Positions 5,925 to 37,609 of a DNA stretch of 39,799 nucleotides are shown in pieces. Position 1 is the stretch's first letter. Each line of letters starts with the position of its first letter. Both the position numbers and the translations under genes were made by a program. Origin of the DNA: a virus. Where the stretch lies: positions 1-39,799 of IMG/VR virus record IMGVR_UViG_3300010233_000088, one strand, 5' to 3'. The notes under the pieces are model-generated. The model did not search any database. It saw nothing but the letters and a program-made list of their open reading frames with translations, and was not told the origin of the DNA.

Positions 5925-6202
5925 CCTTCCCACTCCACCTTTAGCCATCCACAACATATTTTACATAGTAAATTATTTCTCATATACGTATTACCTTTTG
6001 TTTCTGCGCTACAGTTCTCACAAACAAACCTTTTAGAAGCATAATCCATGTTCTCACACTGCCTTATTAAAACGCTTCGACAAATTGTTTTACTATAATC
6101 ATCCACACAAGCAGAAGAAAATACAGAATCTTCGCCCTCTACAAATACCCTTGAATCTTGGGGAAATTTATTTAATTCCTCAATGAGTTCACTTATTTTC
6201 AT
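5921..6202 (-). CDS. Small protein: helical N-terminus plus C-terminal zinc ribbon
   Basis: 93 residues from the ATG at 6202 (ATGA overlap with the dehydratase stop; MGRA further up is outside the coupling pattern). The N-terminus KISELIEELNKFPQDSRVFVEG resembles a widespread small phage/bacterial protein that typically reads (S)xELIxxLxxxPxDAxVxV. The second half has C-x2-C (CENC) and C-x2-C (CKIC) forming a probable zinc ribbon. Function unknown. Its stop overlaps the radical-SAM start. Confidence 0.7.
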   Translation of the reverse strand: MKISELIEELNKFPQDSRVFVEGEDSVFSSACVDDYSKTICRSVLIRQCENMDYASKRFVCENCSAETKGNTYMRNNLLCKICCGWLKVEWEG

Positions 6203-7212
6203 AGCCCTACCCACTCAGGATGTTCCATTGTCCACTTAACTGTACGTTCAAGTGATTCTTCAAGGTTCTTAGGGAATGCATGCCCGTAATTGCGAAGTTT
6301 CTCACCGCTTAATCCGTAGAATGGGTCGTGACCAGGACGGCTTGTTTCTGCGTCAACCATTTTATACTTTAATTCTTCGCCCATAATATTGGCAATCAAT
6401 AGTGCCATGTCTAAGTTACTTATTTGCTTTCCTCCAACAATATTAAATCTCTCCGGTCGGTTTGCTTGCGGATATAAGGGGACAGGAACGTTCTGAAGCA
6501 TGAACAGTAAAGCGTCAGAGGTGTTGCGGGCGTGTAGCCAGAACCTTGCTCCGGAGATTGTCTTTGTTGGGTCTGAGTGAATCGTAACAGTTTCACCTAA
6601 AATTATTTTCCTTATTACCATTGGAATAAATTTTTCATGATCTTGCATCTCCCCAAATGTGTTCATAATGTTTGTAAGGATCACCGGAACCCCATAAGTG
6701 CGCCAGTAGCTTATTGCTATTGCGTCTTGTGATGCTTTGCTTGCGCTATAAGGGTTTGAAGGTAATATGGGAGACCATTCAGGATGATTATGCACTCCAT
6801 CCGTTGGGCCGTAAACCTCATCAGTGCCTATTTGTATAAACTTTATTGGCTTTGCCTGCCGTGCATATTCAAGCATGTTTAACGCAATATTTACATTATT
6901 TTGAACGAAAGGTACGGGGTCTGTGATACTGCGGTCTACATGTGAGGCTGAACAAAAATTTACGATATAATCCACATTTCCAATAGTCCCTCTAAGTACT
7001 GAAGAAATAGGAGCATTTAAATCATGAGTAAATATTCTTACTCTACTTTTATCTTTCTGGTAATGTTCAGAAAATGTTATCCTTTCTGACATCCCTTTAT
7101 GGTTAAAACTGTCAAGGCAAACCACTTCCCAGTCTGTGTTAACAAGAATATGGCTTAAACAATGCGAACCTATAAAACCTCCTGCCCCAGTTATAAGAAT
7201 CCTTTTAGTCAT
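6199..7212 (-). CDS. dTDP-glucose 4,6-dehydratase-like SDR (RmlB family)
   Basis: 337 residues, extended short-chain dehydrogenase. NAD site GAGGFIG (9-15); the family signature SASHVDRSI; catalytic TDE (130-132, in TDEVYG) and YSASK (Tyr155, Lys159); EKFIPMVI downstream. The TDE triad distinguishes 4,6-dehydratases from plain 4-epimerases, so conversion of an NDP-hexose to its 4-keto-6-deoxy form is likely. The product is the normal substrate for NDP-sugar C-methyltransferases such as the one at 11173-12225. No RmlA-type nucleotidyltransferase is in the window, so the activated sugar must come from the host. Overlaps the upstream GT2 by 8 nt. Confidence 0.88.
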   Translation of the reverse strand: MTKRILITGAGGFIGSHCLSHILVNTDWEVVCLDSFNHKGMSERITFSEHYQKDKSRVRIFTHDLNAPISSVLRGTIGNVDYIVNFCSASHVDRSITDPVPFVQNNVNIALNMLEYARQAKPIKFIQIGTDEVYGPTDGVHNHPEWSPILPSNPYSASKASQDAIAISYWRTYGVPVILTNIMNTFGEMQDHEKFIPMVIRKIILGETVTIHSDPTKTISGARFWLHARNTSDALLFMLQNVPVPLYPQANRPERFNIVGGKQISNLDMALLIANIMGEELKYKMVDAETSRPGHDPFYGLSGEKLRNYGHAFPKNLEESLERTVKWTMEHPEWVGL

Positions 7213-18769: not shown

Positions 18770-18804
18770 TTTTATCCCTAATACGTGATGTTTTAGGAAT
18801 AAAA
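18770..18804. promoter_or_regulatory. Operator-like inverted repeat upstream of HTH gene
   Basis: Arms TTTTATCCCTAA (18770-18781) and TTAGGAATAAAA (18793-18804) pair at 11 of 12 positions around an 11-bp centre. It is 31 bp upstream of the start of the HTH-protein gene and about where promoter elements would be expected. Probably a repressor site for that protein or the RHH regulator. Confidence 0.5.
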
Positions 18805-18939
18805 CCAAAAGGGGACTTGCTTAAACCTTATTAGGTCGTGGCCAAGAGAAAAGGGCAAAAGAACTTGGGAGTCCCACATTGAAAACTTAACGTTCCATAC
18901 ATAACGGCGCACGGATTGTATACAAGCCGGGAGATTTTA

Positions 18940-18978
18940 TGACAAAGAAAAAGCCCCATACGTTTTAAGTATGAGGCT
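18940..18978 (-). terminator. Rho-independent terminator of the virion operon
   Basis: Minus strand: AGCCTCATAC, loop TTAAAAC, GTATGGGGCT (ten pairs, one of them G-U), directly followed by TTTTTCTTTG. Position 190 bases after the tail-fibre stop and before the early promoter region fits the end of the late transcript. Confidence 0.88.
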
Positions 18979-19001
18979 AAAGAATTCTGGGGGGTTAAAT
19001 C

Positions 19002-19091
19002 TTGAGGATTTACGCTGACCGTTAAGAGAGCGGCCCCCCATATTTTGAATTTTAAAATTGAATTTTTATTAACGGTCATAAATATCCTCAA
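19002..19091. repeat. Long imperfect inverted repeat (possible cruciform)
   Basis: Left arm 19002-19025 and right arm 19069-19091 share TGACCGTTAA/TTAACGGTCA and GAGGAT/ATCCTC at matching distances. The loop (19026-19068) holds a C6 run and a symmetric AATTTTAAAATT. Could be an origin, recombination site or regulator-binding site. Confidence 0.7.
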
Positions 19092-19166
19092 AAATCATTA
19101 TTGCTAAATGAAAACAAATTGCAAGGAAAATTTTAATTATTTTTTAATGTTCTCTACAATAAAAAT

Positions 19167-20369
19167 TTAATTTATCTTTGTTAATTCCAAAAATCCATAA
19201 ACTTCCGTTCCATATCCACCAGAAGTACCCAGACCTGATGAAATACTACTAGCAACTTGGTATTGAAAAACCAATGTTGTTGTTCCCGTTACTGAAAATT
19301 CACCAGATAAAGGGCTTGTAGTATAAAGTCCTGTCGTACCGCTTCCTGAATTCATTCCATTTATCAAAACAGTTGAAGGGCTTACTACAAGCCTTGATTG
19401 ACATACGCCATCATTGCTAAAAAAATTAATAGCTCCTTTTGCAAGATATGTTCCATAAGGGACTATGAGCGTACTACTTGATAATGTTGCGATAGTCGCA
19501 GTGTCATTGTCTTTAGTGTTTAATGGGTAAGTTAACCAACTTCCACTAACGCTATTTGCGCCATTTGTATTGGCAGAGAAAGAATATGAACATTTAATAT
19601 AAGAATAAGGAGCATGAAGATACCCCCCTGCATCTGTTCTTACAATTACATTCGATCCGCTTGTTGAAGCATTTACAGAGGTTATTATCGGGGTTGTTGA
19701 AGTGCTAACAATAGTAATATCGGAAGTTGATGAAGAAACACTTGTTACTGTTCCCGCGTTACCCCATTGCTTAATTGCAACAGTTGTCATGGTGGGGGTC
19801 ATAAATGTTGTGTTGTCTGTACCCGTTTGGGCTTGTGCCGCTGTCGAAGCCACCGTTGTCCCGCCTGTTGGTGCATAAGCATAAACAAATGCCGTTGCTG
19901 TTGTATTTAAAGCAAGAAACAAAGTCCCGTTTGTAACTGATACAGGAGTCGGTACGACAGTGCTTATTCCTGTTGTTCCTAAAGGAAAAGTCAAAGACAA
20001 GTTAGTATTAGTTAACTGCTCTTGGTCAATCATCGTTAATTGGTCAAGGTTATTCTGTAACGTCGTCGCTGGAAAAGTATTGTAATTAGCGTATGATGAA
20101 TTTTGGACTATTGAGGTCTGACGATAAACCACATAGTTATAGTTTGAACCATAAGAAGGCGTAACGATTACCGTGCCACCTAAACTCGTGGTGCTTAAAG
20201 TGACCGTGTATTGTGTCCCGTATGATAAAGCCGTAATCGTTCCTCCGGTCAAGGCGACTACATTAACTTGAATATATTGCGGAAATCCTGAAAGCGCGGT
20301 GAATGTAAAAGTTAAAACGCTCTGACCACCTGAAAAAGTTTGAGTCGAATTTGTTGTACTAACCGGCAT
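19167..20369 (-). CDS. Tail fibre / receptor-binding protein
   Basis: 400 residues. The first about 120 residues follow the T7 tail-fibre N-terminal plan (SVLTFTFTALSGFPQYIQVNVV, YGTQYTVTL...VIV, YVVYRQTS, FPATTLQNNLDQLTMIDQEQL) that attaches the fibre to the tail. The middle is Ser/Thr-rich beta repeats; the last about 140 residues (TIATLSSSTLIVPYGTYLAKGAINFFS...ELTKIN) resemble a C1q-like trimeric head. Binds the host surface. AAGGAG precedes the ATG; last gene before the terminator. Its receptor may be the glycan that the phage itself modifies. Confidence 0.85.
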   Translation of the reverse strand: MPVSTTNSTQTFSGGQSVLTFTFTALSGFPQYIQVNVVALTGGTITALSYGTQYTVTLSTTSLGGTVIVTPSYGSNYNYVVYRQTSIVQNSSYANYNTFPATTLQNNLDQLTMIDQEQLTNTNLSLTFPLGTTGISTVVPTPVSVTNGTLFLALNTTATAFVYAYAPTGGTTVASTAAQAQTGTDNTTFMTPTMTTVAIKQWGNAGTVTSVSSSTSDITIVSTSTTPIITSVNASTSGSNVIVRTDAGGYLHAPYSYIKCSYSFSANTNGANSVSGSWLTYPLNTKDNDTATIATLSSSTLIVPYGTYLAKGAINFFSNDGVCQSRLVVSPSTVLINGMNSGSGTTGLYTTSPLSGEFSVTGTTTLVFQYQVASSISSGLGTSGGYGTEVYGFLELTKIN

Positions 20370-20396: not shown

Positions 20397-21650
20397 TCAT
20401 AAAGATATTCCAAACTCATTTAGTTTCTTTTCTTCCTCCGTTGCCTCATCCAAGCTGTCCGCGTAAGTTTCTATGTAATATCCTTCAATCTGCTCGCAAG
20501 CTTCCTTGCATTTCTTAATAGCTTCTTCCTTGGTATCTCCTGTGGCCACAACTGCCCCTATTTCGGGCAATCCTACCCCTTGCGGGGCTACATAATATTT
20601 ACCGTCAATTATACACAAATTCCTGAATTTCATATTATCCCTTAATTCAGGGGGAAACTCAATCGGTTGCCAATTATTATCAGCCCAGGACGAATGAATT
20701 AAAACTTCCGCCCCGTACTTTGCCTCTGCAATCGGTTCAACCAGAACGCCCTCAGCCCCATACCAAAGGATTTCCGCAAGATTTGAATACATGTTCTGTA
20801 CCAACTCACCAGGAGGGCTTCCGAAACGGCACATAGGGTCAATAACCCAAGGCGTTCCGTCTTTAGTAATCCGCATTTCACAACAAAAAAAGTTCTTGTA
20901 TCCATAACTTGCAAGTGTTGGGGCGACCTTCGCGTTTATATCTTTGACCTGTTGGCACATCTTATCATATTCTTTAAACACACCTAAATAAGACTTGTCT
21001 TTTATTTCGATTCCAGCCATAGCATGTTTAGGAAATTTTCCATCAATAGTAAATCCATCATAACCAACCTCTACTGCTTCTGTGATAGCGTCCTCAACAA
21101 CCCACTCCATTACTGATTTCTTAGCGCCTAATTTATATTCAAGTTCATCAAGTTTTGGCTCAATCAATTTATAATTCTTAGATTTAAAAGTTTCCATGTC
21201 CCCGCGTGTCGTTGAAACCTTTACATACTGGTCTTCATGTTCTTTCAAATGCGCCCTTAAATTAGCCATTCCTTTAACGACTTTGTAGTTTCCTATATTT
21301 ATACCAAGACTTCGTAAATGCTCTTTTGTTTCAGGGCGGTAAAGCTCTAATTCATCACCACAACGGGAACCCCATACCCTTTTACCTTGAGATTCAAGTT
21401 CTAACTGTTCTGGCCCTGTATAAATATCGGGAAACACCCACAAGTCAACTTCGTCTTTGACTTCCCAATAATTATAAATGCGTTCAACTCCGGGGATTCC
21501 TTTTCCTACAATCCTTGTGTTAGACTGTGGGAAAGCGTTAACCCAGTGCATGTAATAAAGCACACGCCCAAAAGTTTTTGAAAGAGTTACCGCCAACTCA
21601 ATAAACAAACCATTGTCTATGATGCAAACTGTCTTATTGCTGAAGTCCAT
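20397..21650 (-). CDS. ATP-grasp ligase related to PurD (glycinamide ribonucleotide synthetase-like)
   Basis: 417 residues. N-terminal pre-ATP-grasp domain, then ATP-grasp with YVKVS (Lys144), MEWVVEDA, GFTIDGKF, CCEMRITKDGTPWVIDPMCRF (Glu258, Asp271, Arg275 region) and a C-terminal domain (YVAPQGVGLPEIGAVVATGDTKEEAIKKC) like that of PurD. PurD joins a carboxylate to an amine via acyl phosphate, so amide-bond ligation is predicted. It lies inside the virion operon, between internal virion proteins and the tail fibre, and overlaps a SpeD-like gene by 17 nt. A purine role is improbable here; substrate unknown. Confidence 0.82.
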   Translation of the reverse strand: MDFSNKTVCIIDNGLFIELAVTLSKTFGRVLYYMHWVNAFPQSNTRIVGKGIPGVERIYNYWEVKDEVDLWVFPDIYTGPEQLELESQGKRVWGSRCGDELELYRPETKEHLRSLGINIGNYKVVKGMANLRAHLKEHEDQYVKVSTTRGDMETFKSKNYKLIEPKLDELEYKLGAKKSVMEWVVEDAITEAVEVGYDGFTIDGKFPKHAMAGIEIKDKSYLGVFKEYDKMCQQVKDINAKVAPTLASYGYKNFFCCEMRITKDGTPWVIDPMCRFGSPPGELVQNMYSNLAEILWYGAEGVLVEPIAEAKYGAEVLIHSSWADNNWQPIEFPPELRDNMKFRNLCIIDGKYYVAPQGVGLPEIGAVVATGDTKEEAIKKCKEACEQIEGYYIETYADSLDEATEEEKKLNEFGISL

Positions 21651-22002
21651 TTCTTAACCTCAATTCAAAAGATTTCACTTGTTTTATTTTATAACCACAT
21701 GCCCTTATTTTCTTGGTTACTTTGTTAAGATTAACGGTCTTGCAAGATTCAATAGTTAAGTAAACACCGTCGAAGTCAGGCCATGAATCAAAACATATAA
21801 AAGATTCTGTAATTGGCTGAATATACGAGAATCCTAATCCACCAGCACCGTCCTCTAAAGGATATTTATAACATACTGCGTCATGTGCTTTGTGCATGTC
21901 TAAAGTTTTGATTATTTCGTCAACAAGTTTAATCGCCCCAAACTTTGAGCAATCACCTTTAAGCGTAAAGGCAACCACATCCAATCTTTCTCCTAATTTC
22001 AT
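21634..22002 (-). CDS. S-adenosylmethionine decarboxylase-like (SpeD-like) protein with altered active site
   Basis: 122 residues, the size of short prokaryotic SpeD. The segment ITESFICFDSWPDFDGVYLTI...C aligns with the pyruvoyl-forming motif (S/T)ESH-x3-HT-x-PE. The cleavage pair Glu66-Ser67 is kept. Cys87 lies exactly 20 residues after Ser67, as Cys83 after Ser63 in the Thermotoga enzyme. The His after ES is Phe68 and the catalytic His (His68 there) is Asp72 here. Self-cleavage is possible, but the substrate may no longer be S-adenosylmethionine; SpeD homologues have elsewhere become amino-acid decarboxylases. Coupled to the ATP-grasp gene. Confidence 0.72.
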   Translation of the reverse strand: MKLGERLDVVAFTLKGDCSKFGAIKLVDEIIKTLDMHKAHDAVCYKYPLEDGAGGLGFSYIQPITESFICFDSWPDFDGVYLTIESCKTVNLNKVTKKIRACGYKIKQVKSFELRLRNGLQQ

Positions 22003-22115
22003 TCTTCATCGCCCCCTTCATCATCACCGAACGGATTTACAGGGTAGTCTTCCCCTTCTCCGTTTTGATAAAAATATCCGTCTTCATCGTATAGGCAACC
22101 GTTAGGGTCAATCAT
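21999..22115 (-). CDS. 38-residue acidic mini-protein ahead of SpeD-like gene
   Basis: Encodes MIDPNGCLYDEDGYFYQNGE... ending GGDEE. Both ends are ATGA overlaps (with the 637-residue internal protein and with the SpeD-like gene), so it is part of the translational chain. Very acidic, rich in Gly, Asp, Glu and Tyr, with a single Cys. Could be a linker gene or a substrate peptide for the neighbouring enzymes; that is speculation. Confidence 0.6.
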   Translation of the reverse strand: MIDPNGCLYDEDGYFYQNGEGEDYPVNPFGDDEGGDEE

Positions 22116-24025
22116 TCTTCATCCAGTATTGAGAAATTCTTTCTCTTTTTCTTTTCAGCAATAAAACCATGTTCTTGCATAACTTCTTTTTTTATCCTAT
22201 TTTCCTCATGTCTAATATATGCGCTTTTATCATCCTCTGACATTGCTTTATACTCTGGATTATCTTTGATTTTATCCATTAATTCTTCAAACTTATTATC
22301 GTATTCATCACTTGCTTTATCAAAAGTTTCATCACCTACTTGTTTTTTGAAATCAAGCATGGACTTACTCTCACTAAATTCCCATGATTGACCGGGTTCT
22401 TTGGTGTGCATGGCGGCGCCAAACATCGCAAGAGGAGAAGCTAGGTAGGCAGATGTATTAGCGCCATCATACCGGACTAAATTTATTACATCTCCTATAA
22501 AGATAGGGGTCATTTCATCGACTACTCTTTTTTCTACATCCATAGGTTTTCCAGCAATAGCACTAGAGAGATATTCCCAAATACCTGAATCCATAGGTGA
22601 AAGTTTATTCTCTAAATATTGCATAATATCTTCTTTTTTCTCTTTTAAAGAAATTCCTCTAACTTCACCATATTTTGTTTTTGTCTTGCTTGAAAGTAGG
22701 CGCGCCCAAAGCCTTGCATAAATTGCATTACCACCTGTTATATCAAAGGTCGTATTCCCTAGCCTTACTTTTCCAAAGTCATTACTTCTAGGATCAAAAT
22801 CAATCTTTGCGCCTGCCAACTGGGCTAGTTGCAAAAATCCATAAGTAGCTACCAGACTTCCTAATAGCTGTCTAATTGCTTGTTGTCGGACGTAAGGAGC
22901 CATTTTTACATAAAGATAAGGATTAAACATATTCATCGTTGCTAGTATTTTTCTTGGTGCAAAAAAGACATTATTCAATATCGGTTGAGCAGAAGCATAA
23001 CGATCATCTTTCCCAAGCGCCGCCCTTCCCGTAAAGTCGTTAACAATATTTGCTAGTTCCTTTGATAAGTCAGAGCCTTTTGTAACATCTAAACCGCGCA
23101 ATCTTGCGCCATTTAATAAATCAACATACCGAGTAAACCTAACATAGTTTAGGAAACCTGTAAATGACCTGCTCGACGCTAAAACAAGTTCTTTTAATAT
23201 AGGGACATGTTGAAGAATGCTTGACTGGATAGCCTCTTCTCGTTCGCTTAATTTGTCAGTTATTTTAGTCAATCCAAGCTTGGCCGCTTTGGCTGTAGAG
23301 TAGTCAGGATGGGTTATAATAAAAGCATCTAAATTTTCAAAGTTGTCTTTATTCAAATATTTAAACATTTCTGGTATTCCTTTCCAGAAATTCTTTGTAG
23401 ATAACATTCCCCATCCTTGAACTCCGGGCCCTGAGAAGTGGAGTATTGACGTTAGGGCTTCTTTAGGAAGATTCCACCAATTTGAAAAGCTTAAGAATGG
23501 ATTTCCTTGAGGTTTTAAGGAATCTATATAATTGAGAGCATCCTTATATTTTCTTCCATAATCAATTCTATTTTTTATGTTAGATGGATCAGAATCCATC
23601 TCTTTTTTTGCCTCTGTAGCCAATTTTGCCAATCTTGAAATTTCTTTAGCTTCATCAGGGGTAACTTCTCCTTTTATTCCGAGTTTCTTTGCAATAACAT
23701 CCCCCATGAACTTTTCTTTGTCTTCTGGACTTAATAAATGATCTATCCTGTTTATTTTTGAGATTACATCTCTTGAAGCCGGTGTCTTTAATCCTAAAAG
23801 TTGTTGTGTTGCATTAATTAGTCCCTGCTCTTGATTTTTTAATAACAATTTACTCTCAATCAATTCATTAACATTCTCTGCCGTTTTTACATCATTAAAA
23901 ATAGAAGTAAAATAGCCCAAACGTTGTGCAGGTGACATATCTTTGATAGAATCTACATCCAATTCCCCGGATGTTATTTTACCTCTTAAAACATCTGCTA
24001 GTTCTTTGCGTAAGCAAAATGACAT
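22112..24025 (-). CDS. Large internal virion / ejection-type protein
   Basis: 637 residues. Mostly helical; central region has NNVFFAPRKILATMNMFNPYLYVKMAPYVRQQAIRQLLGSLVATYGFLQLAQLAGAKIDFDPRSNDFGKVRLGNTTFDITGG. This pattern (FF-x-PR, then hydrophobic helices, then DPRSxDFGKxxxGxTxxDxxGG) is that of large polyvalent/internal proteins of podoviruses and prophages (LPD38-like). The C-terminus is highly charged. Third of three consecutive large proteins downstream of the tail nozzle, equivalent in place to T7 gp16. Likely ejected with DNA. Confidence 0.75.
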   Translation of the reverse strand: MSFCLRKELADVLRGKITSGELDVDSIKDMSPAQRLGYFTSIFNDVKTAENVNELIESKLLLKNQEQGLINATQQLLGLKTPASRDVISKINRIDHLLSPEDKEKFMGDVIAKKLGIKGEVTPDEAKEISRLAKLATEAKKEMDSDPSNIKNRIDYGRKYKDALNYIDSLKPQGNPFLSFSNWWNLPKEALTSILHFSGPGVQGWGMLSTKNFWKGIPEMFKYLNKDNFENLDAFIITHPDYSTAKAAKLGLTKITDKLSEREEAIQSSILQHVPILKELVLASSRSFTGFLNYVRFTRYVDLLNGARLRGLDVTKGSDLSKELANIVNDFTGRAALGKDDRYASAQPILNNVFFAPRKILATMNMFNPYLYVKMAPYVRQQAIRQLLGSLVATYGFLQLAQLAGAKIDFDPRSNDFGKVRLGNTTFDITGGNAIYARLWARLLSSKTKTKYGEVRGISLKEKKEDIMQYLENKLSPMDSGIWEYLSSAIAGKPMDVEKRVVDEMTPIFIGDVINLVRYDGANTSAYLASPLAMFGAAMHTKEPGQSWEFSESKSMLDFKKQVGDETFDKASDEYDNKFEELMDKIKDNPEYKAMSEDDKSAYIRHEENRIKKEVMQEHGFIAEKKKRKNFSILDEE

Positions 24026-24026
24026 A

Positions 24027-25634
24027 TTAGCACTCTATGGAATCTACAAAATCTTTCCAATTTTTTGGTTTATTTAATTTGCTTATTTCTTTTTCTAATA
24101 TCTTTGCGGCTTTCTTTGATTCCATTTTTATCTTAGGCTTATTCTTTTTTACCACAAATTCTCTTGCTTTATTTATTTCTCTTATTCCCTTAACAACGTC
24201 TGATGGGTCGCTTGCATCTAGTGCTTTTATTCTTTGACCCATTTCTGTTGCAGCATGAGCAGCCTTATCTGCATGCGCCAAATCTAAAAGGGTATCAATG
24301 TCTCCTTCTGCCTGTGCTTTAATTCGAAGCGCTGTAAAGAGTTCTTCTGCTCTTAAATCGTCTTGTTCTGCGGCTTCGCGCTTGGCGATTTTCATTGCTA
24401 AATCATGGTCATTGTTTATAAATTCAGAGGCTCTTTTCCCAACATCATCCATATTACGAACATCATATTTTGATACTTCTTCTTTCTTCGCATCTTCTTC
24501 TTTAAGTCCAGCCTTTATAGCGTCTTCAATAACAGATTTAGATAAGCCGCTTTCCTTTTTTCCTATTGGTTCTCCTGCTAGTTCTCCTATGGGCGCCTCA
24601 GCTTCTTGGGAAGCTATGGGAGAATAACTTACTTTTCCGTCATCATCAATTTTTACTTGATATCTTGGTTTAATTATTGTTCCTATTGCTTGCTTTATTT
24701 CAAGACGAATATTCCCGTCTTGCATAAGTGTTTCAGTTGTGTTCTTTAATCCTTCAAAATCTCCATCTTTAATATTGGTCTTCATTTGTTCTTGGTGATC
24801 TTGTAAAGTTTCTTTTTCTATAGGAGTATCAACGCCTGCTATTAAATGAGGCATTAAACTAAATGCTCCCCAATATGCAAATCCTTCTCCTGCTGATCGA
24901 ACAAGTTCTTCTCTTGTGGGAAGCCTTCCTTGTGTTGCTGCATCATAAGTTGAGGAAGCCATACTTATTGATGGCATTAGAAAAAACCCCTTAACTCCGG
25001 TTCCTGCAAAAGCAAATGCGGTATCAAAAGCCGCTGTAGATGTGGCACTTGCCACTGACTTCAAAGCAGCTTCTGGAATATCTTCTTTGTTCTTAATTGA
25101 ATTTTGTATACTCTCTGTTGCATTTCTAACAGCTCCTCCTATTGCAAAACTAGGGATAGCATTTAGAACTTCGGATACTGCTGGCATAGCTTCTACAAAA
25201 GAAGCTGCTCCTTGGAAAGCCATACCAGTTGCAATATCTACTGGCAAAGTTGGCCCCAACATACCAATTCCCCTTAAAAATCCATCTGCCGTTTTTACAG
25301 CTATATTATCGGATGCAGTTTCTTTAGACAGCGCGGAAACTTTTTGTCTTATCTCTTTAACTTCAGGAGTATCACCTCTGCCTATGAATTGTAAAAGATT
25401 AGCAGATCCTTCTTCAAAACCTTGATACAGGCTTAATCCTGCACTTTTAATAAAAGGAGTTGAATGTTCTGCTGAGAGTGGAGTCATATCATGGGCAGGT
25501 GTTCTTATTCCATTCGCAAAATCGTCTGCTCGTACTAATTCATATTGAGAATCAGGTTCAGGTTTTTGGGATAAGAAATCTCCTTTAGTCATTACCTGTT
25601 GATTATTATTTATAGTTTGGGCATTGTCACTCAT
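24027..25634 (-). CDS. Internal virion protein with hydrophobic Gly/Ala segment
   Basis: 535 residues from the ATG at 25634, which overlaps the previous stop by 8 nt (ATGAGTGA); the frame extends 12 codons further up but without a better ribosome site. Residues about 75-240 are rich in Gly, Ala and hydrophobic residues (FLRGIGMLGPTLPVDIATGMAFQGAASF...), able to insert into membranes, flanked by charged helices. This suits an ejection-channel protein of the T7 gp14-gp16 group. No enzyme motif seen. Confidence 0.7.
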   Translation of the reverse strand: MSDNAQTINNNQQVMTKGDFLSQKPEPDSQYELVRADDFANGIRTPAHDMTPLSAEHSTPFIKSAGLSLYQGFEEGSANLLQFIGRGDTPEVKEIRQKVSALSKETASDNIAVKTADGFLRGIGMLGPTLPVDIATGMAFQGAASFVEAMPAVSEVLNAIPSFAIGGAVRNATESIQNSIKNKEDIPEAALKSVASATSTAAFDTAFAFAGTGVKGFFLMPSISMASSTYDAATQGRLPTREELVRSAGEGFAYWGAFSLMPHLIAGVDTPIEKETLQDHQEQMKTNIKDGDFEGLKNTTETLMQDGNIRLEIKQAIGTIIKPRYQVKIDDDGKVSYSPIASQEAEAPIGELAGEPIGKKESGLSKSVIEDAIKAGLKEEDAKKEEVSKYDVRNMDDVGKRASEFINNDHDLAMKIAKREAAEQDDLRAEELFTALRIKAQAEGDIDTLLDLAHADKAAHAATEMGQRIKALDASDPSDVVKGIREINKAREFVVKKNKPKIKMESKKAAKILEKEISKLNKPKNWKDFVDSIEC

Positions 25635-27270
25635 CTGATTTTTTCTCTGCTTGCTTTTTATAATAATCACTGCTTTTCTGTTTTAATTTCTTTGCCCATT
25701 TAGTAGCTCTTTCTGCTTCATGTTCAAATTTGCTAACAATGGCTTCACCAATAGGTTTGGCTACCTTTGATATTTCTTCTCCAATAGGATTTTCTAATCT
25801 TGGCCTTGTTCCCGGCGGGGTATACTTACTTCCTTCTGGTGCCAAGAAACGATCATCCTCGCTAGAAGATTTCTCTTTTTTAACTTTAAGAATTGCAACT
25901 CCATCATCATCAAACTTAACAACCTGACCAGAATTTCCTGTTTTATTATCAGTTATTACGTCTCCAATCTTATGTTGAACCATTGAAGAGTTTCTTTTAA
26001 CTTTATACGCATCTGTAGCAGTCTTATATGCTTCCGCGGCAGATGAGCCTTGATGTATGGCATTTAAGTAGTCCCCCATAGCTGTGGGATCATTTTTAGT
26101 AGTCATTGCTACAGATTTTGTTCCTGCATCAATAGTTGCTTGAGTAGGGTCAATATCATTTACTCCGGTTGTAGGAAGTTTTTTTGCTCTATCGGCGACT
26201 GCATTAATTAGAATAGAAAGTCTTTCTTCCGTCATTCCTTTTTCTTTAATAGCATCTAATAAATATTTCCCTGCTTCGTCTTTATTCTTGGACAACAAAG
26301 CCTTTTGCGCTGCTTGTGAATATTCAATATTCTCGTCGCTACTTGGTTCGTATTCTCCTCTGGGGTCGGATAATCTCTTGTCTCTTACGGCGATTAAAGA
26401 ATTTTCTAAAACGCTATCACCTTTTGACAATTCTTTTATTTGTTGATTACTTTTCCATCCTTTGTCTTTATTAAAAATATCAGATAATACAGAGACCCTA
26501 TTTTGATAAGTGTTCTCTATGTTTGACTTAACATTATCTGCTATATGAGAATCGACCATCTTTCTTAATTCACTAGAATCTTTTATATCTAGTCCGGCGC
26601 TATCTTCTTTTCTTGGCATTTCACTGATATTCTTGTAATCATCAGGATTTGTTGATTTGTTTCCATCAACTCTTGCTTTTATAATTTCCATTCTTAATTC
26701 TTTCTCTGCTGCTAATGCTTCTTCATCTGTTCCATATATTCCTCTTGAACGCAGAGTCCTTATGCTGCTCATTCTTTTATCATAATCCTCTAAGGCCGCT
26801 GCTTGAGAAACAGGATTGGCTATATTTTGAGCTGCTACAACATTTGCCTGTTTTTCACTTTCCTTAGTTGCCAATATCTGTTTTCCTTTAAACATGTCTT
26901 GAATTTTTATGCTTGTAAGAAAAGCACTATGTTGTATGTCCAATGATGTTTGTTGAGCCACCCCTTGATTAGATATTCCTTTTGTAGCGTCTTCTGATAT
27001 TTTATTAACTGCTTTTATGTGCATTTCTGCGTTTTCAGGATTGGGATCATTTTGTGCAGCAATTTCTTGTTGATAAAGAGACATTTCTGCTGAATTCTTT
27101 GCCTTAGTTTCCTGCATGACATCGTTACGATCACTCCAATCTTGAGTTAGTTTGGTAATCGTATTGGTCATGTTCTGAATGTCCTCGAACGGCGCTGCCG
27201 CTTGATGACGTTCAGGTGGGGTTTGGATATTGATATTTGATGTACTATCGTATGTGGGAAATTTTGGCAT
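25627..27270 (-). CDS. Long helical internal virion protein
   Basis: 547 residues, rich in Glu, Lys, Asp, Gln and Ala with long predicted helices (for example residues 45-75 and 120-215), no membrane segment, and a Lys-rich C-terminus ending KKQAEKKSDE. Position and size match T7 gp15-type internal proteins. ATG at 27270 follows the preceding stop TAA directly. Confidence 0.68.
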   Translation of the reverse strand: MPKFPTYDSTSNINIQTPPERHQAAAPFEDIQNMTNTITKLTQDWSDRNDVMQETKAKNSAEMSLYQQEIAAQNDPNPENAEMHIKAVNKISEDATKGISNQGVAQQTSLDIQHSAFLTSIKIQDMFKGKQILATKESEKQANVVAAQNIANPVSQAAALEDYDKRMSSIRTLRSRGIYGTDEEALAAEKELRMEIIKARVDGNKSTNPDDYKNISEMPRKEDSAGLDIKDSSELRKMVDSHIADNVKSNIENTYQNRVSVLSDIFNKDKGWKSNQQIKELSKGDSVLENSLIAVRDKRLSDPRGEYEPSSDENIEYSQAAQKALLSKNKDEAGKYLLDAIKEKGMTEERLSILINAVADRAKKLPTTGVNDIDPTQATIDAGTKSVAMTTKNDPTAMGDYLNAIHQGSSAAEAYKTATDAYKVKRNSSMVQHKIGDVITDNKTGNSGQVVKFDDDGVAILKVKKEKSSSEDDRFLAPEGSKYTPPGTRPRLENPIGEEISKVAKPIGEAIVSKFEHEAERATKWAKKLKQKSSDYYKKQAEKKSDE

Positions 27271-27271
27271 A

Positions 27272-27733
27272 TTAGCTCAAGTTTAATGATTTTTTATTAT
27301 ACATTCCATATTGTGAAACACCTGTGAGCAAGTCTGAAAAAGCGCTGGAAACTCCGGAGAACATATCGTTTGACGCTTGTTGCTTTAACATCTTGGCCCG
27401 GTCGGTAGCAGAATTTATTCCCATTGTCGTGTTGTATTGGGCGATCGCCTTATCCGTTTCTATTTGAGTCTGATTATTGACCATGACTGCGGCAACGCTT
27501 CCGGTAGGATCAAGTCCTGCGGCCCCGGCCACAGCAGTAGACTTGGCCGCCATCTCTCCGCCTTGGGTCGTTAATTGACCTTGCTGGATGTTTCCTTGAA
27601 CCTGTGTTTGTTGCGCCTGTAAAGTAGATAACGTAGAATTGTATTTATCTTCTGCACTCGTAGCAATTCCTTGTCCGATGCTAGTTATCCCCTTAACTGC
27701 GCTGAGTGCTAATAAAGCCCCGCTAAAACCCAT
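27272..27733 (-). CDS. T7 gp14-like small internal virion protein
   Basis: 153 residues from the ATG at 27733, seven bases after GAGG; a TTG six codons upstream is less likely. N-terminus MGFSGALLALSAVKGITSIGQGI is an Ala/Gly-rich hydrophobic helix, followed by Gln/Thr-rich helices and AATDRAKMLKQQASNDMFS-like segments. This is the order found in T7 gp14 and in many podovirus internal proteins, directly after the nozzle gene. Confidence 0.75.
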   Translation of the reverse strand: MGFSGALLALSAVKGITSIGQGIATSAEDKYNSTLSTLQAQQTQVQGNIQQGQLTTQGGEMAAKSTAVAGAAGLDPTGSVAAVMVNNQTQIETDKAIAQYNTTMGINSATDRAKMLKQQASNDMFSGVSSAFSDLLTGVSQYGMYNKKSLNLS

Positions 27734-27740
27734 ATATGCC

Positions 27741-30056
27741 TCACTTATCAAACGTCGATATAGTTGTCGTTAAACTCAAAATTTCTACTGGGAAAGGATC
27801 TGTATTTTGAATCAATACTTGTGACCCATAACGGTAATCATCCTGAAATGTGATATTAGGTAATATGCCCGTATACAAAGGAGGCGGCGTCCCCATAATT
27901 GTTGACGGTAATCTTGCTTGCGCAATAAACTGTGTTCCGGTAGTACCACTTAACAGAAAACCCGTGTAAGAATTATTCAGTTTAAAAGAGATGTTATTAA
28001 TTCGTTGCTTCTTGCCCTGCGCAGTTCCCTCTGGGTCTGGTGTTTCCTGTGGTAAGGTCAGAATGGTTTGCGTTGCTTGAAGCCCAACGGTCACGACATA
28101 ATAATTGCTTCCTAAAGTTATCGCGCCATTAGAAACTACCTTAGAAGGATAATCAACTCCGCCATCCGCATTGACAACTACCGTTTGAGCTTCTAACCAA
28201 GTAATTCCTGAAATCTTCGTTACTGAAATTCCCCAACTTTGTGCGGAATAACTTGTCGCAGAGAAATTTGAAGTCGAAGTACCTACAATTATCGTGCTTG
28301 AGGTATACCCCGTGATGGTGATTTCCCCTAACATGTTGTCATATGCATCCACCGCACGTAATCTATTACCTACTTGGCTTGCTGAAAAATATGCGGCAGA
28401 GGAAGTAACAACGATCGTGCCTGCCGTTGCACTTAAGCTTATCGAAGTTGATGATGTGGCTGTGAAGGCACTGTAAGTCAATCCAGAGTGGACATAAAAT
28501 AATTGGTCTTGTTGGATTGCTGTTGAGTTGCCTTGCGTTGGCAAAAGTTGGCTTTGATACCTTTCAATGTAATTTACTTGGGAACCGTTTATGGTTCTTA
28601 AAACCATGACCCACACCTCATCATACGGGCCGCTCTGTGATGGAATAATAGCGATTGAAGAAAAACTTCCCGAGGTAACTTGGCGTGACCACGCCTGTAC
28701 TTTCTGGTCAATCTCACGGGTCATGGTAGCCAGCGTGCCGTTAGAGCATAAACACCAAAGCACGGTATCTGGATTCTGTTGATAACCTATATCAATAAAC
28801 CCACCACCCGCCACTTGAGGGGATAAGATTGTTCGGTCGGTAGATTGATAAAGTGATTGCAAAAACTGAAAGGTTATTTCCCTTAATTTTTGCTGGCCCC
28901 TTTGAATATAATAAGCGAAATTTCCTATCTTTTTAGGGATGATAGGCTCAGATCCCCAGCTGGTCTGTTGAATAACACCCACGTTAGAAGGGGTTATGGC
29001 ATTACCTGTTCCTATCCCTGCGGTAATACAAAACTCCCCCCCATAGGTACCAACGATTAAATCATTCATGGGGACAAGCCATTTGATATCGTTTCCTTGT
29101 GTGGCAGATAACTGTAGATTAAGCGCGTCATCATCTGCGCCACCGTTGACAGCGTAATTGGTAAAATTAAAAGTCGCAGACCCCCATACTGTTTGAGGTT
29201 CACTAGATGTTCTGGCAAAGAAAAGCCTGCCTTGGTAGAAACAACAGCACGAAGGATACCCACGCACAGCAGACCAAGACCCTTCTGCCCAAGTAGTTGT
29301 CGCTGCGGTCGTAGTTAGAGTCTGGTAAACAGTGGCCGCGGCAGTTGAAGGATTTGTTACCGTAGTTATCTGCACACATCCTTGAATAGCCAGACCCGTT
29401 GTGGCGCTTGTAATTGTAGACCCAATAGACCACCAAGTGCCGTTGTGTCCGGTTGTAGTGGCACTTGAAACCGTGAATATGTTTCCACTGGCACTTAGAG
29501 TCGTTGAAGCCCCGGAAGCAGAAGCGCTTGATTGCAGAGTCGTTAAAGTAAGATTACCCGGCATGAACGGGCCGCCTGTGAAAGCAAACGCCGCCAAAGC
29601 CCAGTTAGCAGAGGCGTTTCTGGTTAAAGTGTTTATCGTGTATTGCCCTTGTGTCAGATAAACTACATCGTGGTTTTGGCAGTATTGAATGGTAGAAATG
29701 CTTGGTGCGGCATAGCTGTTTGTAAGCGTGTAAGGAGTTGTACCGGTTGAAACGACCACCGCGCCATTTGTATAAAATCTAAAGTTCCCTGCGCCTACTT
29801 CAATGATATATGAATCTGTTACAGAAAACTGAAAAGGAATTATCCTTGCACCCGTAAGGGTCGTTGATCCACCTGTAAGAGCTTGGTTAATAAACTGTAG
29901 CCCGGGCGTTGAAATAATAGAACCGAAAGGACGGATAAGCCAATTTACAATTATCGCGCAAGCTTGTTTGTATTGGTCTATATCCGTCCTTCCGTTCAAT
30001 GAAGGCCCGAACTCACCTCCAACAAAAGAGGTTTGTATTGTGTCAATCTTTTGCAT
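27741..30056 (-). CDS. Tail tubular protein B (nozzle, T7 gp12-like)
   Basis: 771 residues. N-terminus TSFVGGEFGPSLNGRTDIDQYKQACAIIVNWLIRPFGSIISTPGLQFI is the diagnostic start of the gp12/nozzle family (sFxGGExxPxLxgRxDlxxYxxg...N...pxGgxxxrPG). The remainder is Ser/Thr-rich beta structure with EVWVMVLRTINGSQVNYIERY and a C-terminal propeller-like region. Forms the distal tail tube in the mature virion. AAGGAT precedes the ATG. Confidence 0.93.
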   Translation of the reverse strand: MQKIDTIQTSFVGGEFGPSLNGRTDIDQYKQACAIIVNWLIRPFGSIISTPGLQFINQALTGGSTTLTGARIIPFQFSVTDSYIIEVGAGNFRFYTNGAVVVSTGTTPYTLTNSYAAPSISTIQYCQNHDVVYLTQGQYTINTLTRNASANWALAAFAFTGGPFMPGNLTLTTLQSSASASGASTTLSASGNIFTVSSATTTGHNGTWWSIGSTITSATTGLAIQGCVQITTVTNPSTAAATVYQTLTTTAATTTWAEGSWSAVRGYPSCCCFYQGRLFFARTSSEPQTVWGSATFNFTNYAVNGGADDDALNLQLSATQGNDIKWLVPMNDLIVGTYGGEFCITAGIGTGNAITPSNVGVIQQTSWGSEPIIPKKIGNFAYYIQRGQQKLREITFQFLQSLYQSTDRTILSPQVAGGGFIDIGYQQNPDTVLWCLCSNGTLATMTREIDQKVQAWSRQVTSGSFSSIAIIPSQSGPYDEVWVMVLRTINGSQVNYIERYQSQLLPTQGNSTAIQQDQLFYVHSGLTYSAFTATSSTSISLSATAGTIVVTSSAAYFSASQVGNRLRAVDAYDNMLGEITITGYTSSTIIVGTSTSNFSATSYSAQSWGISVTKISGITWLEAQTVVVNADGGVDYPSKVVSNGAITLGSNYYVVTVGLQATQTILTLPQETPDPEGTAQGKKQRINNISFKLNNSYTGFLLSGTTGTQFIAQARLPSTIMGTPPPLYTGILPNITFQDDYRYGSQVLIQNTDPFPVEILSLTTTISTFDK

Positions 30057-35975: not shown

Positions 35976-37609
35976 ACAAGATGCATAAGGGTTTAAGGTC
36001 TAACTTTGAAAGCTATTGGCAGAGTTTACATGATTATTACTATATTGAAGCTGAGGACATAAACACGACTTATTATCCTGGGACTGAGTTAAACGCGGCG
36101 TGTTTATATGACTCGACCACGCTTGAAGCGGCTGACGTCTTAGCTTCGGGTTTTATGAATTACCTAACACCTCCTACGAGCAAGTGGTTTGGTTTGACAC
36201 CGAAGAACCCTAAAAACAGAGATAACAAAACAATCTGCAAATTCTTGGAGGACTGTACTGATGAAGTCAATTACGCGCTTAATAAATCAAATTTCTACAA
36301 CCAGATCATTGCGTCGTATAAAAGCTCAGGGGTCTACGGAACCTCGTGCATCATCGAAGAAGAAGACGTTGAAGATGATATACGATTTAACTCCCTCGCT
36401 ATCAAGAACATTGTCCTTGTAGAAGATGGGAGAGGTCGGGTTGTCCAGTATTTTATAGAGTTTGAGTATACCGCAAGGCAAGCAGAGAGCAAATGGGGGC
36501 GTGAGAATCTTCCCGATGCTTTACAGAAAGAGTTAGAAAGCGGAAATGAGAAAGCCAATAAGCACTTATTTTTGCTTTACATAGCCAAGCGCAGTAACCG
36601 AGAAGTCCAAAAGACTGACAAGAAGAACATGCCTGTTGAAGCGGTTTGGTTAGACCAAGAGAATAGGCAGATAATTGATGAGAGCGGATATAACGAGTTT
36701 CCTGCTTTTTGCCATCGCTTTGATAAAAGGCCATCCATTGTATGGGGATTCAGCCCTGGCATGAAGACATTACCTTTCGCCCGTATCTTAAACGCGGTGG
36801 CAAAGACTAATTTAAGGGCAATGATGAAGCTGACTGATCCTCCTATAGCGGTTCCTGATGATGCTTTCATAATGCCTTTTGACATGAATCCAAGGGCTTA
36901 TAACGTTTATAACAAGAAAGCTATGGACAGGGGAGCGGCTGACATCTTCGCTTTCGGTAATTACGGCAACCCTGAAGTTGGCATGAAAGCTTTGGAGTAT
37001 TACACCACTCGAGTTAAAGCGATGATGTATAACGATGTTTTTATAGCTTTTGACAATATAACTAAGCAAATGAACAACCCTGAAGTCATGGAGCGAATTA
37101 ATGAGAAAATGACCATGTTAGGGCCTGCGGTTGGCAGGTATATATCTGAGATGCTTAATCCGGTAATCATTCGAACCTTGGGCATCCTAGCGCGAAGGGG
37201 ACGTCTTCCAAAGCCACCTGTTGAGTTCTTAATGGAACCAGAGTATGAGATTGATTGTGTAAGCCAGTTGGCACAGGCACAGCGTAGAAGTGAGTTAAAT
37301 AGCTTAGTAAGTGGATTGACGATCGTTGCCCAGATGGCCCAAGTAAGTCCACAGGTTACAGACTGTGTTGATCCTGACAAGGTAGTTAATGAGGTTTGGG
37401 CTATTACTGGTGCTCCTGACAGGGTGTTGAGGGATGATGCAGAAGTAGCTAAGTTGCGTGAGGTAAGAGGGCAGATGGCTAAACAACAGCATGATATGGA
37501 GATGGCTTCAAAGGGAGCGCAGACTGTCAAGGATGGTTCACAGGTCGACCTCAACGTTGCTAAGGCCAAAGCACATACAGGTATCGTGCCAACATCGAGG
37601 GCGCAATGA
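35972..37609 (+). CDS. Portal (head-to-tail connector) protein, residues 23-567 of 567
   Basis: Reads in frame from ACC at 35972; an internal ATG at 35981 gives 542 residues, but the real start is at bases 99-97 on the minus strand. Features of the T7 gp8/Head-tail_con family: FESYWQSLHDYYYI, DSTTLEAADVLASGFMNYLTPPTSKWFGL, YKSSGVYGTSCI, GRVVQYFIEFEYTARQ, KRPSIVWGFSPGMKTLPFARILN and a charged helical C-terminus. Forms the 12-mer DNA gate at the capsid vertex. Stop overlaps the next start (ATGA). Confidence 0.93.
   Translation, partial: TYKMHKGLRSNFESYWQSLHDYYYIEAEDINTTYYPGTELNAACLYDSTTLEAADVLASGFMNYLTPPTSKWFGLTPKNPKNRDNKTICKFLEDCTDEVNYALNKSNFYNQIIASYKSSGVYGTSCIIEEEDVEDDIRFNSLAIKNIVLVEDGRGRVVQYFIEFEYTARQAESKWGRENLPDALQKELESGNEKANKHLFLLYIAKRSNREVQKTDKKNMPVEAVWLDQENRQIIDESGYNEFPAFCHRFDKRPSIVWGFSPGMKTLPFARILNAVAKTNLRAMMKLTDPPIAVPDDAFIMPFDMNPRAYNVYNKKAMDRGAADIFAFGNYGNPEVGMKALEYYTTRVKAMMYNDVFIAFDNITKQMNNPEVMERINEKMTMLGPAVGRYISEMLNPVIIRTLGILARRGRLPKPPVEFLMEPEYEIDCVSQLAQAQRRSELNSLVSGLTIVAQMAQVSPQVTDCVDPDKVVNEVWAITGAPDRVLRDDAEVAKLREVRGQMAKQQHDMEMASKGAQTVKDGSQVDLNVAKAKAHTGIVPTSRAQ

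Follow-up and report, generated by a model that had tools for sequence, protein, structure and literature searches.

The DNA analyzed here, referred to below as the window, is a stretch of 39,799 nucleotides from an IMG/VR virus record (IMGVR_UViG_3300010233_000088). Three minus-strand ORFs lie tightly packed within it: an acidic mini-protein of 38 residues (21999–22115), a SpeD-like proenzyme of 122 residues with the predicted fold of class 1b AdoMet decarboxylases (AdoMetDC) and belonging to an Asp-type clade (21634–22002), and a 417-residue ATP-grasp ligase with a predicted PurD fold, from a phage family that is absent from Pfam and PHROGs (20397–21650). The mini-ORF overlaps both the SpeD-like gene and the end of a 637-residue virion-operon ORF upstream (22112–24025, minus strand), in each case through ATGA, while the SpeD-like and ATP-grasp ORFs overlap by 17 nt. 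Re-reading of the sequence confirmed these coordinates, frames and overlaps, together with the ATGA-chained 38-residue ORF, as an earlier note on this DNA had given them. That note also placed the pair between internal virion proteins and the tail fibre. This holds on the downstream side, where a tail protein or fibre is encoded (19167–20369, minus strand; phrog_1640, tail), and a PHROG match to an internal-virion-protein family is found at 27272–27751, followed by a tail protein (27741–30056) and a head-tail adaptor/portal (35981–37609, plus strand). However, the two ORFs directly upstream (22112–24025 and 24027–25670) have no confident PHROG match, and the label of internal virion proteins is thus partly a positional inference.

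Each of the three ORFs shows purifying selection, with pN/pS values of about 0.29 for the SpeD-like protein and 0.16 for the ATP-grasp ligase (window against locus L001), and of 0.10 for the mini-ORF (window against L011; pN 0.09, pS 0.88), ratios that should be taken as rough because synonymous sites are near saturation. The evolution of the locus appears mosaic, in that the window ligase is closest to that of L001, while the SpeD-like protein of L001 and the mini-protein of the window are both closest to those of L011. We also observed a conserved, apparently non-coding stretch 3' of the tail-protein gene (18780–19100, minus strand, in the window; 8800–9130 in L001). Within it are an inverted repeat resembling a terminator, CATAC...GTATGGGGCTTTTT, and more than 40 consecutive identical bases, CCAAGTTCTTTTGCCCTTTTCTCTTGGCCACGACCTAATAAGGT; the SpeD-like proteins of these phages are just 65% identical. 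An Rfam search of this stretch returned no match.

The window SpeD-like protein is matched by the Pfam AdoMet_dc profile at E=3.5e-4, which is under the curated cut-off, while 27 of 31 members of its family are matched, the best at E=4.7e-17. A PDB search with the single sequence returned nothing, and one with a two-sequence profile returned only chance matches. The assignment was settled by a 31-sequence profile together with a fold search: using an AlphaFold2 model (pLDDT 93.3), five PDB matches were obtained at E≤1e-3, all of them bacterial AdoMetDC, with a Z of 12.3 against the enzyme of Thermotoga maritima. The SpeD-like identity proposed from the sequence alone, for which the presence of this fold had been named beforehand as decisive, is thus borne out by the predicted structure and the profile matches. 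A bona fide AdoMetDC of the spermidine pathway is nonetheless disfavoured, as no spermidine synthase (SpeE, PF01564) was found in 24 phage records (the window and 23 others, many of which are fragments). Among GenBank phages, neither the SpeD-like nor the ATP-grasp protein of the window has a detectable homologue, and isolates are therefore uninformative for now.

For the ligase, the PurD profile TIGR00877 gives a match at 1.6e-4, with a score of only 20.6 bits where the cut-off is 288; it also matches 22 of 65 family members, the best at 2.5e-9. The predicted structure (pLDDT 95.9) finds its best solved match in GAR synthetase/PurD over the whole length (TM 0.76, Z 31.9), in agreement with the PurD-like ATP-grasp assignment made previously. 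Eight residues (R105, K144, E153, E215, K217, E258, D271 and R275) are invariant in 65/65 ligases, while the third metal ligand of ATP-grasp enzymes, usually Asn, is replaced by Cys, Thr or Met at position 273. As the signatures GGRE, NTGGMG and GDPE are found in none of the 65 ligases and the score is far under the TIGR00877 cut-off, PurD (GAR synthetase) itself can be ruled out. Tested member by member, the family has no counterpart in Pfam or PHROGs, and the ORF at 20397–21650 is, on the modeled structure, an ATP-grasp ligase of the PurD fold that stands outside both collections.

To follow the pair across phages, IMG/VR was scanned with a five-sequence ligase profile, yielding 147 relatives, of which 80 were kept. 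A SpeD-like gene is present in 35 of 74 non-redundant ATP-grasp loci, mostly just upstream of the ligase. An independent scan from the SpeD-like protein yielded 53 loci, 51 of them with enough downstream DNA, and an ATP-grasp gene lies downstream in 50 of these 51, in most cases overlapping the SpeD-like gene or at most a few hundred bases away. Because the scan was seeded from linked loci, distant SpeD-like genes that are unlinked may be under-represented in this count. The sole SpeD-like locus with no ATP-grasp gene downstream is L221 (3962–4360), where a stop codon stands just ahead of the cleavage motif. Co-occurrence in other genomes, on which the earlier note had staked its proposal, is thus very widespread. 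The possibility that SpeD-less phages carry a SpeD-like gene elsewhere found no support, as none was seen in their records, many of which are fragments, in a search run with no positive control. As about half of the ATP-grasp loci have no SpeD-like gene beside the ligase, and none elsewhere in their records, the decarboxylase is therefore optional. The dependence is one-way: the ligase exists without the decarboxylase, but the reverse is hardly ever found, as expected if the SpeD-like protein supplies the ligase.

A terminase or portal can be detected beside 51 of 91 non-redundant loci, these being typical neighbours. A few copies are found in cellular genomes, namely in a prophage of Bradyrhizobium sp. 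YR681 (L088), in the order terminase, SpeD-like, ATP-grasp and portal, and in contigs of Opitutaceae, Acidobacteriaceae and a Patescibacterium. Two further small proteins were noted upstream of the genes. A small basic family (about 50–95 residues, NNK.V.F.GK...ISEKAAKRH) with weak matches to phrog_16759 lies upstream of SpeD-like/ATP-grasp genes in about 20 loci (L026 102–395, L029 3266–3550, L033 3451–3624 and others). A small protein of the HELIEELLT type, with a metal-binding-like motif, lies directly upstream of the SpeD-like or ATP-grasp gene in 17 loci (for example L005 5303–5650, L006 5555–5962 and L087 3604–4008); it has no PHROG assignment, and its only Pfam match is sub-threshold.

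In the ligase tree, every SpeD-bearing ligase falls into one supported clade, comprising 49 of the 65 (SH-aLRT 99), and explaining where SpeD is present takes nine changes on this tree, compared with about 22 in shuffles. Among the SpeDs, the Asp-type proteins group as one clade (100/100) and a further set of phage SpeDs as another (100/99), in which L029, L040 and L050 have His at the catalytic position and L028 has Asp; in the best tree, this His-type group is placed with bacterial SpeDs and not with the Asp-type clade. Such an arrangement hints that SpeD may have been recruited twice beside the same ligase. Two independent recruitments are not claimed, however, because a single clade remains compatible with the data under an AU test (p 0.116).

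The active site was read directly from the window sequence, where the Glu66-Ser67 pair, Asp72 at the position of the catalytic His and Cys87, 20 residues after the Ser, are all as the earlier note had them. The codon of Ser67, the predicted self-cleavage and pyruvoyl residue, lies at 21802–21804, that of Asp72, in place of T. maritima SpeD His68, at 21787–21789, and that of Cys87, the counterpart of T. maritima Cys83, at 21742–21744 (all on the minus strand). In T. maritima SpeD, Ser63, His68 and Cys83 have roles in processing and catalysis (PMC10407285). In a set of 51 non-redundant SpeD-like proteins, the Ser at the cleavage site is found in 51/51 and the Cys at +20 in 50/50, with Glu or Asp at -1 in 49/51 and Ser or Thr at -8 (the position of T. 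maritima Ser55) in 48/51. Position +5, where class 1b SpeDs have the catalytic His, is occupied by Asp in 46 proteins, including that of the window, by His in three, by Glu in one and by Leu in one (L007). The Asp found four residues ahead of the catalytic Cys is kept in the rows with His (3/3 phage, 14/16 cellular and pelagiphage) but lost in 26 of 27 Asp-type rows. Because the two changes are coordinated, the Asp-type active site looks, as far as sequence comparison can tell, rebuilt rather than decayed. One case of probable decay was observed separately: in L007, a close relative, the SpeD-like gene (6001–6360) has an in-frame TAA at a Tyr position as well as the Leu where the window has Asp72, whereas its ATP-grasp gene remains intact.

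Taken together, we assign a probability of about 0.55 to a reading in which the two genes form a two-enzyme module: a self-cleaving pyruvoyl decarboxylase would convert an amino acid to an amine, with which the ATP-grasp ligase would then amidate a carboxylate. The two genes would be expressed together with virion genes as one module. In the first step, the SpeD-like proenzyme would cut itself between Glu66 and Ser67, with Ser67 becoming the pyruvoyl group, and, by analogy with SpeDA and SpeDC, this group and Cys87 as proton donor would decarboxylate an amino acid to an amine. The likeliest substrate would be a basic amino acid of the ornithine or arginine type rather than AdoMet; for phage SpeD homologues without AdoMetDC activity, ornithine or arginine serves as the substrate (PMC9992855, PMC10407285). 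In the second step, by analogy with PurD and other ATP-grasp ligases, a carboxylate would be activated by ATP and the amine attached to it as an amide, the candidate acceptors being a peptide, a virion protein, a polyamine or a small acid; in phages with no SpeD-like gene, the ligase presumably uses a host amine. Both predicted folds, the near-complete conservation of key residues, the strict one-way linkage and the packaging/virion location support this reading, while the change of His68 to Asp, the loss of the Asp before the Cys, the replaced third metal ligand, the optional nature of the SpeD-like gene and the decay in L007 count against it. The pyruvoyl step should be considered its weakest link, given the role of His68 and because the human AdoMetDC H243A mutant cleaves its Glu-Ser bond without forming pyruvoyl (PMC5377238), such that Asp must be an adequate base or else the enzyme is inactive. 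The two-step reading of the earlier note accordingly survives as the best explanation of the linkage, and as a plausible pathway now that both folds are found and the genes co-occur, but its step from Asp in place of His to a different substrate was too strong. Since the His also serves pyruvoyl formation and ornithine- and arginine-specific SpeD homologues keep it, the Asp signals a changed active site and not a changed substrate as such.

The same substitution could instead mean that the SpeD-like protein is dead, a prozyme-like partner that does not cleave itself and binds or regulates the ligase, which alone would act on host metabolites. There is precedent for this in the trypanosomatid AdoMetDC-like paralogue, a regulatory partner with no self-cleavage (PMC3686867), and a protein that practically never occurs without its ATP-grasp neighbour would fit such a role. 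We nonetheless consider this unlikely, as the invariant cleavage Ser and Cys and the acidic residue that precedes the Ser would be superfluous if no cleavage took place, and as His-type members retain the complete His/Asp/Cys set.

Slightly less probable is that the SpeD-like enzyme serves polyamine auxiliary metabolism. Its product, be it putrescine, agmatine or decarboxylated AdoMet, would replenish polyamine pools used in condensing DNA or in translation, and the ATP-grasp enzyme would be an unrelated neighbour, for example a PurD substitute in purine synthesis. Phage SpeD homologues with ornithine or arginine decarboxylase activity are documented (PMC9992855), free-standing pelagiphage SpeDs adjoin ribonucleotide reductase genes, and a place in the virion operon would suit DNA condensation. 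This reading leaves unexplained, however, why an ATP-grasp gene accompanies nearly all SpeD-like loci, while the free-standing phage SpeDs that were compared fall outside this clade, and both the missing spermidine synthase and the missing PurD signatures speak against it.

The acidic mini-protein deserves separate consideration. That of the window has a close homologue in L011 (MIDPNGC.YDEDGY.YQNGEGE), while other loci have acidic ORFs of different composition, many with a PDEWRDYAD-like motif. Of 83 non-redundant loci, 27 have an acidic small ORF in the 1.6 kb upstream, compared with 0–4 of 42–79 loci in downstream or far-upstream 0.8-kb bins. These ORFs are seen whether or not the locus has a SpeD-like gene, and some directly adjoin the ligase gene. 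The mini-protein is thus suggested to be a companion of the pair, recurrent but not universal. In a graspetide-like system, a conserved precursor peptide would be expected beside every ligase, and the count of 27/83 weakens the idea of a universal acidic-peptide substrate. That the mini-protein is the true substrate of the ATP-grasp enzyme, receiving the amine on its Asp/Glu or C-terminal carboxylates, would agree with this upstream enrichment, with the occurrence at both kinds of loci and with the strong conservation between the window and L011, but is the least likely of the alternatives, as such an ORF is missing from two thirds of the loci, the mini-proteins fall into at least two types that look unrelated, and acidic small ORFs may be ordinary proteins of phage packaging modules.

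Returning to the two-enzyme module, a more specific and quite improbable form of it would have the Asp-type pyruvoyl decarboxylase make a cationic amine, to be linked by the ATP-grasp enzyme to carboxylates on a virion protein or on the co-translated acidic mini-protein while particles are assembled. If true, such amine capping would be a protein modification not known to us in any virus, and the His-to-Asp pyruvoyl active site would be without precedent. For phage biochemistry, the module itself would be an additional pathway, forming amides in two steps, that its genes assign to the packaging/virion programme. The Asp-type proteins would offer a natural test of whether Asp can stand in for the catalytic His in pyruvoyl enzymes, the ligases would be a new ATP-grasp family for enzyme discovery, and the Bradyrhizobium prophage copy makes the system accessible to laboratory work.

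Phage SpeD-derived decarboxylases and phage amidoligases are each already known, separately; in open-licence papers we found no description of the SpeD/ATP-grasp pairing, of the Asp-type clade or of the ATP-grasp family. The window SpeD-like protein shares with SpeDC and SpeDA, the pyruvoyl ornithine and arginine decarboxylases derived from SpeD in phages and bacteria (PMC9992855, PMC10407285; e.g., pelagiphage HTVC201P AXH71538), the class 1b SpeD fold and size, the Ser/Cys pair and being encoded by a phage. From the diagnostic SpeDC residues (Gln, Thr, Phe and Tyr, at positions inferred from the alignment) it keeps Gln62 and Tyr81, as do the SpeDC-like L159/L160, but has Glu66 and Ser73 where these carry Thr and Phe, and the four-residue set is thus incomplete. 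Its clade differs from SpeDC and SpeDA in having Asp for the catalytic His, in being separate in the tree and in being practically always coupled to ATP-grasp; its genes lie in the virion/packaging region, whereas those pelagiphage SpeDs lie beside ribonucleotide reductase. Compared with PurD (TIGR00877), the ligase shares the whole-length fold and the ATP-grasp ATP/metal residues but differs in its missing signatures, its low profile score and its location outside a purine operon. Like the trypanosomatid AdoMetDC prozyme and ADL (PMC3686867), the SpeD-like protein is a SpeD paralogue whose active site has changed and which would act together with a partner, but the prozyme does not cleave itself, while the phage protein keeps the cleavage Ser and Cys invariant. 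The phage amidoligase/ATP-grasp operons (Iyer et al. 2009, cited in PMC10580990; LUZ24-like phages, PMC3890496) and the R2K ATP-grasp ligases (PMC4431377) are also phage-encoded amide-forming ATP-grasp enzymes with unproven targets, for which cell-wall or protein modification has been proposed. Those operons combine amidoligase, glutamine amidotransferase and AIG2-type partners, of which no Pfam match was found among the 10 window proteins scanned around the pair, and lie in the early region, while the ligase described here has a SpeD-like partner and lies in the packaging/virion module.
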